Shown in pieces: positions 8,516 through 13,031 of a stretch of 37,561 nucleotides of DNA. The DNA is from a virus. The notes beneath the pieces are model-generated. The model was not told where the DNA came from, ran no database searches, and worked only from the letters and a program-made list of their open reading frames with translations. The number at the start of each line of letters is the position of its first letter. Positions within the stretch are counted from its first letter, which is position 1. Position numbers and translations under genes: made by a program. The stretch covers positions 1 to 37,561 of the IMG/VR virus record IMGVR_UViG_3300042346_000114, one strand, 5' to 3'.

Positions 8516-9794
8516 AAGTTTCACCTGTTGATTCAAGTATTGCCTGTTTGCCCGTGAAGTCTTGCCAGCGTTTTATAATAACGTCACAGTATTTTGGGTC
8601 TAGTTCCATCAATCTTGCGTGTCGGTTTGAATTTTGACAAGCCATCAAAGTTGTTCCGCTTCCACCAAACAAATCAAGAACAACTTCTTTAGGTTTGCTA
8701 CTCCATTCAATCATTCTCTGTACTAAGTTTACAGGCTTCATGGTTGGATGCAATTCGCTACGAGAAGGTCTATTTTCTCGAAGTGCTGTATTTTTTTGTT
8801 CAGTTCTATAACTATTAACCAATTCTTGTAATTCTGCTTTATTCATTTTTTTTATATCTATATCATCATCAATCACGCTAGTTCTTGTGAAATCACCACA
8901 AAAATAATGTGCTGCGCCTTCTTTCCATCCATAAAGAATTGGTTCATGTTGCCAGTTAAAATCTTGTCTACTTAATGTCCCAGATTGTTTAACCCATATC
9001 AATACTTGACTTAATTTAAATCCAGCATCTTTAAAGCATTTAGTGAAATTTACACGCTCTGAATCTGCATGAGCAACATAAATAACACCGCCATCTTTTA
9101 TGACTATAAAATAACAAGCATATACATCAAAAAGAAATTGCTTGAAAGACTCATCGCTCATGTCGTCATTTAGAATTTTTCCAGCAATTCCTTCAATAGC
9201 CACATTATATGGCGGGTCAGTCCATACCATATCGGCTTTACCCCCCCCCATCAAAACATCAACATCATCAATATTAGTGCTATCACCACACATTAATTTA
9301 TGATTTCCTAATAACCAAACATCATGTAGTTTAGTTATTGGTTCTATTGGTGTTTCAGGTATTTCATCTTCATCAGTAAGACCATCTTGCACTTCTTCTT
9401 GGTTACCAATCAATGACAATTCAGTATTATCAAAACCTAATAATTCTAAATTAAATCCTTCTTCTTCTAATTTTTGAAGCTCTAACGCCAACAAATCATT
9501 ATCCCAGCCGCTATTCAACGCCAAACGATTATCTGCAAGAATATATGCCTTCTTTTGCGTCTTGGTAAGGTGTTTAAGCTCAATGGTTGGTACTTCATCA
9601 AGATTTAATTTTTTAGCCGCCAACACGCGCCCATGACCTGCAATAATGCCGTTCTCACCATCAACCAGCACGGGCGAATTAAAACCAAACTCTTTTATGC
9701 TTGCCGCAATCTGCAACACCTGTTGCTCGCTGTGTGTTCGTGCGTTATTAACATACGGTATTAAATCCGCTGTTTTGCGCTGTGTGATTTCCAT
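8499..9794 (-). CDS. ParB-domain DNA methyltransferase (beta class N4/N6)
   Basis: A 431-aa modification enzyme. Residues 1-90 are a ParB/Srx-like domain (DLIPYVNNARTHSEQQ, GIIAGHGRVLAAK). After a linker comes an S-adenosylmethionine-dependent methyltransferase with DPPYN at about 191-195 and FGGSGTT at about 375-381. The catalytic motif precedes the SAM-binding motif, which defines the beta class. It probably methylates adenine or the N4 of cytosine in phage DNA, which would shield it from host restriction or mark pac; target unknown. ATG at 9794 follows AGGGA at good spacing and overlaps the PhoH stop (TAATG). Oddity: nine consecutive C on the plus strand (9241-9249) within codons for MGGGK just before DPPY. 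Confidence 0.9.
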   Translation of the reverse strand: MEITQRKTADLIPYVNNARTHSEQQVLQIAASIKEFGFNSPVLVDGENGIIAGHGRVLAAKKLNLDEVPTIELKHLTKTQKKAYILADNRLALNSGWDNDLLALELQKLEEEGFNLELLGFDNTELSLIGNQEEVQDGLTDEDEIPETPIEPITKLHDVWLLGNHKLMCGDSTNIDDVDVLMGGGKADMVWTDPPYNVAIEGIAGKILNDDMSDESFKQFLFDVYACYFIVIKDGGVIYVAHADSERVNFTKCFKDAGFKLSQVLIWVKQSGTLSRQDFNWQHEPILYGWKEGAAHYFCGDFTRTSVIDDDIDIKKMNKAELQELVNSYRTEQKNTALRENRPSRSELHPTMKPVNLVQRMIEWSSKPKEVVLDLFGGSGTTLMACQNSNRHARLMELDPKYCDVIIKRWQDFTGKQAILESTGETYGSHT

Positions 9795-10480
9795 TAACAA
9801 TCCCTATAAGCCATTAATATTTCTTTGCACATGCCTGAGCGCACAACATCATCCACCGTAAACTCAACCATGCCTATCTTATCCACATTTTGTAATCGAT
9901 TAACTGCATCTTGCAAACCACTCATGCCAGCAATATCTTTTTGGTCAATATCACCATCAATAATCACTTTACAATCCTCACCAATGCGCGTTAAAAATAA
10001 TTTCATTTGCTGTGGCGTGCAATTCTGCGCTTCATCTAAAATATAAAAACACCGTGCAAACGTTTTGCCGCGCATAAACTCTAGCGGTTTAAACTGAATA
10101 GATCCACGTTTTAACAAATACTCTGTGTGCGATTTCCCAAGTCGCTCATTAAGAACATCAAGCAAAGGCTCCATGTATGGCGCATATTTTTCAGATAATT
10201 CTCCTGGCAAATAACCAAAACCACGACCAGCTTCTACGTTAGGTCGCGTCATAATAATTGTGTCAATAATGCCCTCTGACAGCATTTGAGCAGCTACCCC
10301 TGCCGCTATATACGTTTTACCTGTTCCCGCGCTACCAATGGCAAATGTGATGACATTAGCGCGTATTTGGTTGAGATATTGTTGCTGTGTTTTGTTTAAT
10401 GCGCGTACCGGTTTAATTTTCGGCTCATAATAATCATTTTGTGGTGCAAACTTAGCTGATCGTTTCTCTTTTCGCTTCAT
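9794..10480 (-). CDS. PhoH-like ATPase
   Basis: A 228-aa P-loop ATPase of the PhoH family, common in phage genomes. Walker A is GSAGTGKT at about 49-56; Walker B is FYILDEAQNCTPQQMK at about 145-160. The conserved TRPNVEAGRGFGYLPGELSE (about 80-99) and IDGDIDQKD (about 175-183) are diagnostic. PhoH proteins have been linked to RNA handling and phosphate stress; the phage role is unsettled. ATG at 10480 follows AGGAAC. It is the first gene after the large non-coding block, so it may lie downstream of the structured RNA in the same transcript. Confidence 0.9.
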   Translation of the reverse strand: MKRKEKRSAKFAPQNDYYEPKIKPVRALNKTQQQYLNQIRANVITFAIGSAGTGKTYIAAGVAAQMLSEGIIDTIIMTRPNVEAGRGFGYLPGELSEKYAPYMEPLLDVLNERLGKSHTEYLLKRGSIQFKPLEFMRGKTFARCFYILDEAQNCTPQQMKLFLTRIGEDCKVIIDGDIDQKDIAGMSGLQDAVNRLQNVDKIGMVEFTVDDVVRSGMCKEILMAYRDC

Positions 10481-10617: not shown

Positions 10618-11022
10618 ATGGTTAAAACCACCACGCCATTAATGCAAACAACGTGGTGTAAAAAAATTCCTATTTAATCAAGCCTAAACTTCCTACGGTG
10701 AACGATTGATTAAGTAGGCTACAACCCAAGTCTTATTCAAGGACTTGAAAAGTTTGTTGATAGTTGCCGGTGCTGATCTCCGGCTTAGTGTTATTTGGTG
10801 ATGTACTTTCAACCACTCCCAAGTTTCCTATTTGCACCGACGTGCCATTACCGCTGCGTATCAGCCTACGCATTTAACTATCAATGAAACACCCTGCCGT
10901 TGATGTGTGTCTGTAGCACTATAACGTTCCTAGAAATAATACAGGATGTTTCATTCATAACTAAAACCAACCAACCCAGTTATTGATAAATCGCCATAAA
11001 GTGATTTCTGAGTTGGTTGGTT
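10618..11022 (-). ncRNA. Structured RNA candidate, about 400 nt
   Basis: The minus strand here can form a chain of helices. (a) 11022-11008 with 10979-10965: 15 pairs including one U-G. (b) 10954-10942 with 10896-10884: 13 pairs including one U-G. (c) 10884-10876 with 10765-10757: 9 perfect pairs closing a three-way junction whose arms are the hairpin 10872-10867/10860-10855 and the helix 10841-10834 with 10773-10766 (8 pairs, one U-G). (d) hairpin 10747-10742/10732-10727. (e) 10720-10712/10691-10681 with a 2-nt bulge. (f) hairpin 10658-10652/10635-10629 followed by GTTTTAA, a weak terminator. The odd pairs in a, b and c are U-G on the minus strand but A-C on the plus strand, which favours this orientation. 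A promoter sits just upstream. I do not recognise the RNA family. Confidence 0.6.
10629..10658 (-). terminator. Possible terminator at end of structured RNA
   Basis: Perfect 7-bp stem CACCACG/CGTGGTG with a 16-nt loop; on the minus strand it is followed by GTTTTAA, a short U-run. It is only a moderate terminator and partial read-through into the phoH-like gene is likely. Confidence 0.4.
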
Positions 11023-11057
11023 AAAAAGATTATATTCTAAAAAGTAAAAAATAGTAA
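11023..11057 (-). promoter_or_regulatory. Promoter for structured RNA / packaging operon
   Basis: On the minus strand TTACTA (11057-11052), a 17-nt spacer and a perfect TATAAT (11034-11029) point leftward. The predicted start at about 11022 coincides with the first base of the 15-bp helix of the RNA candidate. The surrounding 11023-11080 is very AT-rich and could also serve as an unwinding region next to the repeat array. Confidence 0.6.
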
Positions 11058-11074: not shown

Positions 11075-11189
11075 CGTACACCGTACATGCGTACACCCCT
11101 TTATAGGGGGGTGTACGCGTACGTACGCTTAAATGTACCCATGCGTACATGTGTACATTATAGGTAAAATGTACGCGTACGTACGCTTA
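11075..11189. repeat. GTAC-rich iteron array, putative replication origin
   Basis: About a dozen GTAC tetramers occur in roughly 110 bp. A perfect 20-bp direct repeat TGTACGCGTACGTACGCTTA is at 11112-11131 and 11170-11189; the second copy includes the primase stop codon. A 10-bp perfect inverted repeat CGTACACCCC/GGGGTGTACG lies at 11090-11099 and 11108-11117. Next to it is an AT-rich segment (11023-11080). Repeats plus AT-rich DNA beside the primase-helicase gene resemble a phage origin; operator or structural roles are alternatives. Confidence 0.5.
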
Positions 11190-13031
11190 TTTAAGCCAAT
11201 AATAAACACCATCATTCCCTATAAGTTGTTGATTTAATAAATCTTTTATTCCATCAGCAAAAGAGCGTCTATTATTCTTGTCTGTTATGTACTCATAAGC
11301 AAATGGACGCCATTCTTCAAGCGACACAACCATCTCGTTTTCACCCACCAATGTACGCCCACCTCCCAACTTTTTGGTGGCATTTATGGCGTTTTTTAAA
11401 CCTTCAAAACATTGCGTTGTTCCCTTTTTTAATTCTTTTACGATTTCTTGGCTGCCAACATATTCCAAATAAACACCCTCAATCTGTTTTCCTTCGTCAT
11501 CGTCATAAAAACAATCACCGTCAAGATCAACCACTTTTATTCTAAAATCCATATTATTGCCTGCGCTAAAATCTTTCGATTTGGTACATGACAGCGTGAC
11601 TTCCATTTTAGATTTCTTTGTCATGCAAAATTCTGCATCCATGCCTGCTTTAATAGCACTGCTTCCACGCGCCCGACCTTTATCACCATGACCACTATGA
11701 TGCACTGGAACAATGGCTGCGTTGTATTTTTTAGCAAGCAATTCCATGTTAGCCAAAAATATCGCCATGTCCTCACTGCTATTCTCGTCACCGTGCATAT
11801 TTCTGTGCATTGTGTCGATGAAAATGGCGCATGGTGGCTCGTCTAAGCCTAACCCATCTAATATACTGCCTACACGCATAACCGCGTCTGTATCGAGCAA
11901 ATTAACGCTTTTTGTGCTAAAATAAATATTGTCAGGATTCATGTTGTATTTTTGTTTGAGAGCTTGCATCCTCATTGCAAGCCCTCGATGACCTTCCCCA
12001 GCAATGACCACCACCGTGCCTTTTTTTGTTTTATGACCGTGCCACGCAATACCGTTGCCAATACAAAACGCCCAATCCATCGCAATCAATGATTTACACG
12101 CACCAGATTCGCCAAACAATAACGTGTTTGAGCCGCGCTCAAGTAGGTTTTTAATTACCCAATCAGCGCGTGTTGTGTTTGCCATTAAATCATGGACTGA
12201 AACAAACAGGTTTTGCCTTTTGCCAATAATGAGATCCGCAACCGCTAATATGCCTGCGCGTTTTGCCATGTCGTTAAAATCTTCACCAACAATGGGCGAG
12301 TGGATAACTTCTACCCCGCATTTATTGGCTTTTTCAATACCTACACCGCTTGCATCGTTATCTGCGCATATAATCACCCTGCCTTTGTACTGACTGCGCA
12401 CCATGTCGCACACTGGCTTTAAATTCCCAGCGTTAAACGCAACCACAACACATTGTGCTGTGGCTTCGTGAATTGTCATAGCGGTGGCAAAACCTTCTGC
12501 AATGATTACTACGTCAGAAGGTTCACCAATAGTGAAGTAACCTCCCTGCATTTTACCGCCCGTGTAAAAGCGTTTTGTGCCGTCGGTGGCGATATATTGA
12601 AGCGACTGGATTTCACCACCCACGCCATAAACAGGAATAACGAGTTTGCCGTCATAAATGCGCAGTGCTGCGTGTGATTTGACATTTTTGCGCGTCAAAT
12701 AATCGTGATCTAAAGCGTGTGGGAGTTTTGCATACAGCTCCTGAGCGTTAAACGCTGCGTTGCTGTAAGCAAAATCCCGTTCTTCTTTGGCTTTCTCAAT
12801 AGCTTGTTCGCGTTCGTAATCGTTTTCGCTACTTCTAAAGCCATCAGCAAACCAAACGTGTTGCTCGCCCGATTTCCAGTCACCATAACATGCGCCTTTG
12901 CCGTCTATAAATAATGATACCCAGCCAGATTTCTCTTTGCCTGTAGTGGCAAAGCGCGTAATGCCGTGCTGATTTATATGCGTTGGCGGGTTTATGCCCG
13001 AAGCGCGTATTGCATTTAATAGATCATTCAT
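11187..13031 (-). CDS. Primase-helicase: Toprim plus RepA-like ATPase
   Basis: A 614-aa replication protein. Residues about 170-260 form a Toprim domain with the acidic residues in VIIAEGFATA and ICADNDASG, the catalytic part of a primase. From about 290 on is a RecA/RepA-like hexameric helicase core: P-loop GESGACKS at about 304-311, Walker B IFIDTMHRN at about 402-410, and VPVHHSGHGDKGRARGSSA, a typical arginine-rich loop, at about 430-448. A Cys stands where the P-loop usually has Gly, which I believe also occurs in related ATPases. No Zn-finger is evident at the N-terminus. No DNA polymerase lies in the window, so host polymerase is presumably recruited. Its ATG overlaps the HTH gene stop (ATGA). 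Confidence 0.88.
   Translation of the reverse strand: MNDLLNAIRASGINPPTHINQHGITRFATTGKEKSGWVSLFIDGKGACYGDWKSGEQHVWFADGFRSSENDYEREQAIEKAKEERDFAYSNAAFNAQELYAKLPHALDHDYLTRKNVKSHAALRIYDGKLVIPVYGVGGEIQSLQYIATDGTKRFYTGGKMQGGYFTIGEPSDVVIIAEGFATAMTIHEATAQCVVVAFNAGNLKPVCDMVRSQYKGRVIICADNDASGVGIEKANKCGVEVIHSPIVGEDFNDMAKRAGILAVADLIIGKRQNLFVSVHDLMANTTRADWVIKNLLERGSNTLLFGESGACKSLIAMDWAFCIGNGIAWHGHKTKKGTVVVIAGEGHRGLAMRMQALKQKYNMNPDNIYFSTKSVNLLDTDAVMRVGSILDGLGLDEPPCAIFIDTMHRNMHGDENSSEDMAIFLANMELLAKKYNAAIVPVHHSGHGDKGRARGSSAIKAGMDAEFCMTKKSKMEVTLSCTKSKDFSAGNNMDFRIKVVDLDGDCFYDDDEGKQIEGVYLEYVGSQEIVKELKKGTTQCFEGLKNAINATKKLGGGRTLVGENEMVVSLEEWRPFAYEYITDKNNRRSFADGIKDLLNQQLIGNDGVYYWLK

Follow-up and report, generated by a model that had tools for sequence, protein, structure and literature searches.

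A candidate family of modular structured RNAs with a tRNA-like scaffold and exchangeable inserts in phages and prophages of Pseudomonadota

The minus strand of a gap between two genes of a viral genome is best read, from comparison with its relatives, as encoding a modular, structured non-coding RNA that is a real and widespread element. The DNA is IMG/VR record IMGVR_UViG_3300042346_000114, and the window that we analysed is the whole stretch of 37,561 nt (positions 1 to 37,561). The folded region (11022-10618, minus strand) sits within a gap of about 700 nt bounded by genes for a primase-helicase (11187-13031) and a PhoH-like protein (9794-10480), beyond which lie a ParB/methyltransferase gene and then the gene for the large terminase, whose top match was Caulobacter phage DMCA (50%), followed by Klebsiella and Salmonella phages. 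A preliminary description made from the letters alone had proposed a free RNA of about 400 nt at this place, and strong covariation together with U-tract hairpins at the 3' end bears this out. The three long helices that it had drawn were all present, and each of them covaries in relatives. It had also suggested a covariation analysis and an Rfam scan, and had recognised no known large RNA (GOLLD, ROOL, OLE or a group I intron). Covariation was strong, as detailed below, and Rfam 15 returned no match to the window at the gathering score, with only chance-level matches at a relaxed E<5. The element was likewise unmatched at the gathering score in 18 related loci, and the GOLLD, ROOL and OLE models gave no gathering-score match in either set, in agreement with that reading.

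The 9-pair helix of the preliminary description corresponds to the outer stem, termed P1, of a tRNA-like unit that is conserved in the family (10757-10884, minus strand) and for which covariation was followed in 167-193 distinct members. P1 (UUGAUAGUU/AACUAUCAA, 10884-10876/10765-10757) takes the position of the acceptor stem, hairpin P2 (GCGU[AGGCUGAU]ACGC, 10856-10871) that of the D arm, an insert the place of the anticodon arm, and hairpin P3 (GCCGG[AGAUCAGCA]CCGGC, 10766-10784) that of the T arm, abutting the 3' strand of P1 (P1') without a linker, as a T arm does. Side-by-side reading of IMG/VR stretches gave the family frame P1, AAU, GCGC[AGGCUGAU]GCGC, insert, AA, GCCGG[AGAUCAGCA]CCGGC, P1'. 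The letters of P1 vary freely among 167 distinct members, yet pairing is kept, and all eight counted pairs change on both sides. Pairs 5-8 of P1, which lie outside the selection criterion and are hence unconditioned, were paired in 100, 98, 93 and 69% of these members, against 54, 49, 47 and 46% in shuffles. All four pairs of P2 change on both sides and are 100% paired. For an alignment of 33 diverse members we took out the inserts and named 23 scaffold pairs beforehand; 97.1% of cells were paired and 16 of the 23 pairs changed on both sides, the P1 figures being partly conditioned because the members were drawn from those with at least six P1 pairs. The covariation score of this alignment was 0.495 against 0.149 +/- 0.012 in shuffles, and none of 500 shuffles, which ignore relatedness and are not tree-aware, reached any of five covariation measures; slid controls scored at most 0.108. 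Given how the alignment members were chosen, it is the unconditioned pairs 5-8 that carry the covariation of P1. The P1 stems differ too much for their pairing to be put down to shared ancestry of the letters.

The P2 and P3 loops are complementary over six bases (10865-10860 with 10777-10772, minus strand), which read GCUGAU/AUCAGC in most members. Five distinct members carry the compensated loop variant AGGUCGAU/AGAUCGACA, in which the kissing bases become GUCGAU/AUCGAC, a two-base change exemplified by Pseudomonas phage CF118a. One member carries a second compensated variant, AGGCCGAU/AGAUCGGCA, with kissing bases GCCGAU/AUCGGC, and several members have a G-U intermediate among the loop-loop pairs. 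Compensated variants and G-U intermediates across the six complementary bases show that the two loops kiss. A shuffle test over all loops gave a small, consistent excess for the kissing pairs (5.90 against a shuffled maximum of 5.87), kept small by the identity of most loops, so that the case for kissing rests on the compensated variants. Many matches in a scan for loop variants were set aside as chance, with P1 absent.

The minus strand had been named as the folding strand, and wobble pairs in relatives sustain this choice. The inner stems contained 30 G-U cells and one A-C cell in the sense of the RNA strand, a count in which the 4-bp stem is partly selected for pairing; the unselected 5-bp stem gave six against none. 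These wobbles identify the minus strand as the folded one. Folding energy was dropped as evidence on this point, since the two strands behave alike: the 405-nt minus strand has a minimum free energy (MFE) of -122.9 kcal/mol (z -5.28, equalled by 0 of 100 shuffles), and the plus strand of the same 405 nt has z -5.55. Conservation of a protein frame, raised earlier as an alternative, was also checked. The insert lengths of members are spread over the three remainders modulo 3 (64/56/73) and no open reading frame of more than 46 amino acids was found inside the region, so a reading frame does not explain it.

The preliminary description had combined the 9-pair helix in one fold with a 13-pair helix (10954-10942/10896-10884). 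Both helices are real, but they do not stand together, as base 10884 is common to both and the upstream helix, once extended, takes up the whole 5' strand of P1. This extended helix, the A-helix (10876-10962, minus strand; variable loop 10941-10897), is formed in the MFE structure of the window at the expense of P1. Because the same 5' strand is used by both, the A-helix and P1 are mutually exclusive alternatives. Among 160 loci, the best upstream helix had a median score of 33.5 compared with 21.5 in shuffles, and it exceeded the 95th percentile of the shuffles in 64% of loci; in the best helices, the 3' arm and the 5' strand of P1 terminate within 0-5 nt of each other. The A-loop of locus L231 nearly equals that of the window. 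We infer a co-transcriptional switch in which the A-helix forms and then gives way to P1 by strand displacement, although pairing in trans is equally allowed. A conserved hairpin, GACAGCYUGGAAAGACARGC, lies ahead of the A-helix in L059, L062, L089, L093, L119, L124 and many other loci and is absent from the window.

The working part of the unit may be its insert. In the window this is a 71-nt segment (10785-10855, minus strand) of the type that we call cluster 0, with AAAUAGGAAACUUGGGA and a covarying hairpin whose loop is UGAAAGUA. Across the family, insert length ranges from 12 to 178 nt (median 73-74), and 151 distinct inserts fell into 111 clusters. The same insert cluster occurs on different P1 stems; nine exact inserts were found on more than one flank, and identical 30-nt 3' flanks (n=6) bear inserts that are only 9-32% alike. 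The flanks of the window recur in L093 with an unrelated insert, and the insert of E. coli Bas80 is also present in Pseudomonas phage CF118a, on a different P1. Within the insert type of the window, AAAUAGGAAACUUGGGA, UGAAAGUA and AAUA are nearly unchanged while the helix around UGAAAGUA covaries (GUGGU/AUCAC, GUGGC/GUCAC, CGCC/GGCG, UCGGU/ACCGA and UUGUC/GACAA), and this domain recurs on a further two scaffolds, of which one belongs to the jumbo phage SA002. These comparisons show that structured inserts are replaced wholesale and exchanged between unrelated phages, across which the scaffold is conserved. The idea that inserts are uniformly strong hairpins was rejected, as the group is barely more stable than shuffles (mean z -0.49).

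Several further features of inserts were seen. In Salmonella phage SA002 (L003, 2431-2575), the insert domain of the window sits in a stem UUUUGAGAUG/CAUCUCAAAA, without the kissing-loop hairpins. The inserts of L012, L015, L054 and L086, and the A-loops of phage P1 (L129), contain hairpins resembling a tRNA T arm, with a 5-bp stem and the loop TTCGAGT or similar, and the insert of L011, L014 and L117 contains a Lys-type anticodon arm. Such pieces may reflect tRNA mimicry or captured parts of tRNAs.

At the 5' end, a promoter with TATAAT had been proposed (11029-11057, minus strand). Its -10 box is perfect (11034-11029), but the -35 box, TTACTA (11057-11052), is poor, and a promoter scan of the window reported none at the thresholds of the scanner. 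Loci L185 and L186 have TTGACA-17-TATTAT directly upstream of the hairpin that follows, and L093 has TTTACA-18-TATAAT before it; the boxes of L185 and L186 support a promoter at this position. The hairpin, motif X (10965-11022, minus strand; z -6.48), pairs 11022-11008 with 10979-10965 over 15 bp and has a conserved asymmetric loop, AAAUCACUUUAUGGCGAUUUAUCAAUAA. Its relatives comprise five unrelated stem sequences of 9-16 uninterrupted pairs with the asymmetric loop fixed. Motif X also heads a second operon, that of an Enc34-like ssDNA-binding gene, in phages of the L023/L052 type. Because the hairpin starts another operon in L023-type phages, motif X can function independently of the RNA and may be an antitermination element. 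Between the primase stop codon and the promoter (11190-11070) lie inverted and direct repeats of the GTACGCGTACGTACGC type, with other repeats at the equivalent position in L093 and L089; these are possibly iterons of a replication origin.

At the 3' end, a domain (10669-10756, minus strand) consists of a CAAGUC/GACUUG hairpin, then a stem CCUACUUAAUCAA/UUGAUUAAAUAGG (10717-10669) around the conserved ACCGUAGGAAGUUU, and then a U tract. It is kept in seven aligned relatives, and L228 carries a compensated stem, ACCCGCU.../...GAGCGGGU; the U-tract hairpin alone is not strong by energy (z -1.35). The probable end of the transcript is a terminal hairpin, CACCACG/CGUGGUG, followed by UUUU (10624-10659, minus strand). 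Its sequence, ACACCACGTTGTTTGCATNAATG, was found in 11 IMG/VR contigs and is nearly invariant in the alignment; the terminator scanner accepts only loops of 3-8 and did not list it. In L231, a plain hairpin replaces the tRNA-like unit between the same neighbours, so the RNA as a whole is modular in build.

Searches placed the family in many phages and genomes. When phage and plasmid records were queried with the region by blastn, two short matches came up, both outside genes, and a 141-nt core query returned 90 phage records with one short motif in common. This motif, AAGCCGGAGATCNGCACCGGC, occurs in at least 119 IMG/VR stretches, a figure from scans anchored on exact motifs, which understate the diversity of the family and make the anchors look more conserved than they are. 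The P1 type of the window itself was found in 59 IMG/VR contigs by close search. With the insert masked, the frame matched 255 phage records, and in 102 of these the match covered 80% or more of the query. The corresponding figures among 5426 complete E. coli genomes were 1337 and 822; among the E. coli matches listed, the underlying feature was almost always 'none'. The whole window RNA gave no blastn match in E. coli genomes, because only the short scaffold is common to both. In the GTDB species set, 41 loci had exact hairpin matches, most of them in Enterobacterales, Pseudomonas and Burkholderiales. Prophages of many Pseudomonadota carry members, and the phage records with members, at least 102, are from phages of Klebsiella, E. 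coli and Pseudomonas and include P1-like phages and lambdoid prophages.

Members occupy diverse positions, and we saw no gene common to all contexts inspected. In HK633 and CUS-3 the member lies between Q and the holin gene, in ZC03 inside a tRNA cluster, and in P1-like phages as tandem units adjoining tRNAs. Others lie between tail genes, next to a ParB-like gene or, in a Salmonella plasmid, near a DNA helicase gene. L093 has an HNH gene and the terminase downstream of the RNA, and in L023 the RNA has the Enc34-type ssDNA-binding gene on one side and what may be a DNA polymerase gene on the other. A tRNA was present within 1 kb of 22 of 193 members (11%), compared with 6% at random positions, and in all 22 cases it was on the strand of the member. 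A terminator-like hairpin followed within 260 nt downstream in 45 of 189 members, against 13 on the reverse strand and none in shuffles.

Some individual loci deserve mention. Phage P1 (L129, 1680-2420) and the P1-like 813R1 (L135, 1800-2500) carry tandem units with differing inserts beside tRNA genes, and these arrays overlap annotated plp/upl genes on the opposite strand. Phage lambda imm434 (L235, about 1199-1354) has, between Q and S, the same A-helix (CACAACAGGTAAGAGCATT.../...AGTGCTCTTTCCGTTGTG) and a related unit with stem GUUGUGCUG/CAGCACAAC and a different interior, so a divergent member seems to be present in lambda itself. The start of the Bas80 RNA (L132, about 1770-1930) contains a second conserved RNA-like domain, UUUUCGUNAGCG..., ...GCAGUAGCUUAAUAG...ACACCAG, which occurs without the tRNA-like unit near tRNA clusters in a Mooglevirus (L233, about 1160-1330) and a Kuttervirus (L234, about 25-210). 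The Bas80 RNA as a query matched 957 phage records, and Rfam gave no match on Bas80.

We tentatively favour, with slightly less than even confidence, a reading in which the scaffold is a chassis and the insert its working part, binding a host or rival factor that changes. The RNA would be transcribed during infection from its own promoter, or along with tRNAs or a late operon. The A-helix would form first and be displaced by the completed tRNA-like unit, leaving a stable chassis. As a decoy or inhibitor, the insert would bind a factor of the host or of a rival, such as a protein of defence or RNA processing, and selection in an arms race would swap inserts while the scaffold stayed constant, which would explain their exchange. 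We count in favour of the chassis reading the scaffold covariation, the loop compensation, the competing A-helix, the exchange of inserts and the constraint on insert domains, as well as the wide sharing of the unit, its sense of transcription and its accessory positions (the Q-S spacer, tRNA clusters and between tail genes). Against it, the 12-nt insert of L069 is too small for a binding domain, inserts are only slightly better folded than shuffles, their hypervariability could be neutral exchange of a spacer, and the proximity to tRNAs is only modestly above random. Rather doubtful is the further proposal of a phage RNA weapon system, in which cassette-like heads on the tRNA-like chassis each recognise a different host or competitor protein. 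Such a system, on one chassis common to hundreds of unrelated phages including P1-like and lambdoid ones, would be the equivalent, in RNA, of anti-defence genes that can be exchanged.

The chief competing explanation is an RNA-only assembly of the GOLLD/ROOL kind, which we consider unlikely while giving it more weight than any other alternative; copies would join through kissing loops and strand exchange, and the insert would be a tolerated linker or interior loop. GOLLD and ROOL are also phage-borne near tRNA islands, have kissing loops and hold a variable linker inside their cage (PMC12286853), the two partners of the P1 5' strand could pair in trans, and units stand in tandem in P1-like phages. 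The kissing is, however, explicable inside one molecule, Rfam matched neither GOLLD nor ROOL, and insert domains that are conserved by type and moved across scaffolds would be unexpected for a mere linker.

Less probable still is a cis-acting leader, with motif X as a put-like antitermination element and the rest as the 5' untranslated region of the phoH-like/methyltransferase/terminase operon; both parts had been raised in the preliminary description. Motif X directly follows the promoter in the window, L093, L185 and L186 and heads the Enc34-type operon as well, and HK022 putL is likewise just past an early promoter (PMC9378689). A put-like role is possible for the 5' hairpin alone. Against the leader reading, motif X was found only in loci of the window's own type. 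Control of the operon did not hold up: a constant downstream gene, as expected of a riboswitch or phoH leader, was not found, the genes differing in L093 and L023 and the unit lying at unrelated places in other phages. What undoes the leader reading is that the gene downstream is not constant and that the RNA closes with two terminator-like hairpins.

We think it improbable to a greater degree that the element acts as DNA, with its hairpins as recombination or integration sites and the insert as cargo. Inserts do swap cleanly between conserved hairpins, members lie at mosaic junctions (annotated boundary sequences, CUS-3), and direct repeats flank the unit. Yet the inner-stem wobbles are G-U on one strand only, members lie in the same sense as neighbouring tRNAs and have terminators downstream, and homologous recombination at short conserved flanks suffices for the exchange. 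Least probable of the four is a guide or antisense role, in which the insert would pair with targets that change, as a hypervariable insert on a constant scaffold might suggest: the insert matches listed outside recognised elements in the loci examined (25 of 44) resemble divergent copies of the RNA, not genes, loops stay fixed while helices covary, which points to structure and not to target matching, and the loci inspected share no neighbouring protein gene. On the sequence, a group I intron, a T-box, an attC site and a CRISPR or transposon guide RNA were set aside, as their conserved elements do not fit and no associated gene is present.

An RNA with strong covariation, carried by roughly one in four complete E. 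coli genomes and by phages as well studied as P1, appears to be unannotated. Should the heads target proteins of the host or of rivals, they would add an RNA-based layer to phage-host conflict; if the units assemble, they would form a new class of RNA-only particles. Either outcome can be tested in laboratory phages. We found no description of the family, and none of its motif letters, in openly licensed PMC papers; judged by these papers and Rfam 15, the family is apparently undescribed. To our knowledge, no transcript, binding partner or phenotype has been assigned to it, and we know of no close parallel among bacterial RNAs for a constant scaffold whose structured heads are swapped wholesale.

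Among known RNAs, tRNA, tmRNA and the tRNA-like domain of Y RNA (YrlA) have the order of acceptor stem, D arm and T arm together with a loop-loop contact. The present unit resembles them in its order of acceptor, D-arm, insert and T-arm positions, in the T-arm-like hairpin stacked on the outer stem, and in the contact between loops. The resemblance to tRNA is architectural: the unit has no CCA end, no tRNA model matched it, and it lacks a canonical T or D loop, the loop at the T-arm position being AGAUCAGCA. Six Watson-Crick kissing pairs replace the D-T contacts. ARAGORN called nothing on the window, in related loci only separate, ordinary tRNAs were called, and neither ARAGORN nor the Rfam tRNA model calls the unit. 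Motif X and put of HK022 are both hairpins placed right after a phage promoter, motif X being reused at the head of two operons. HK022 put spans about 70 nt and comprises two stem-loops (PMC9378689), whereas motif X is a single 58-nt stem-loop with a conserved asymmetric loop. VIPR vrRNA is also a phage-encoded non-coding RNA of variable sequence, thought to be active in phage-phage conflict; it has GGY/NN tandem repeats and works with a Vipr protein (PMC13142463), whereas such repeats are not apparent in the present sequence and no Vipr protein was seen beside it, the neighbours being the PhoH-like and primase-helicase genes. GOLLD and ROOL come close: they too are large, structured non-coding RNAs that phages and prophages carry, in many cases at tRNA islands, and they have kissing loops as well as a segment that varies. 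Unlike them, the RNA described here is smaller and modular, is organised around a tRNA-like unit, matches neither by sequence nor by covariance model, and was found in phages of Pseudomonadota, and its variable part is made of conserved structured domains that are exchanged between phages.
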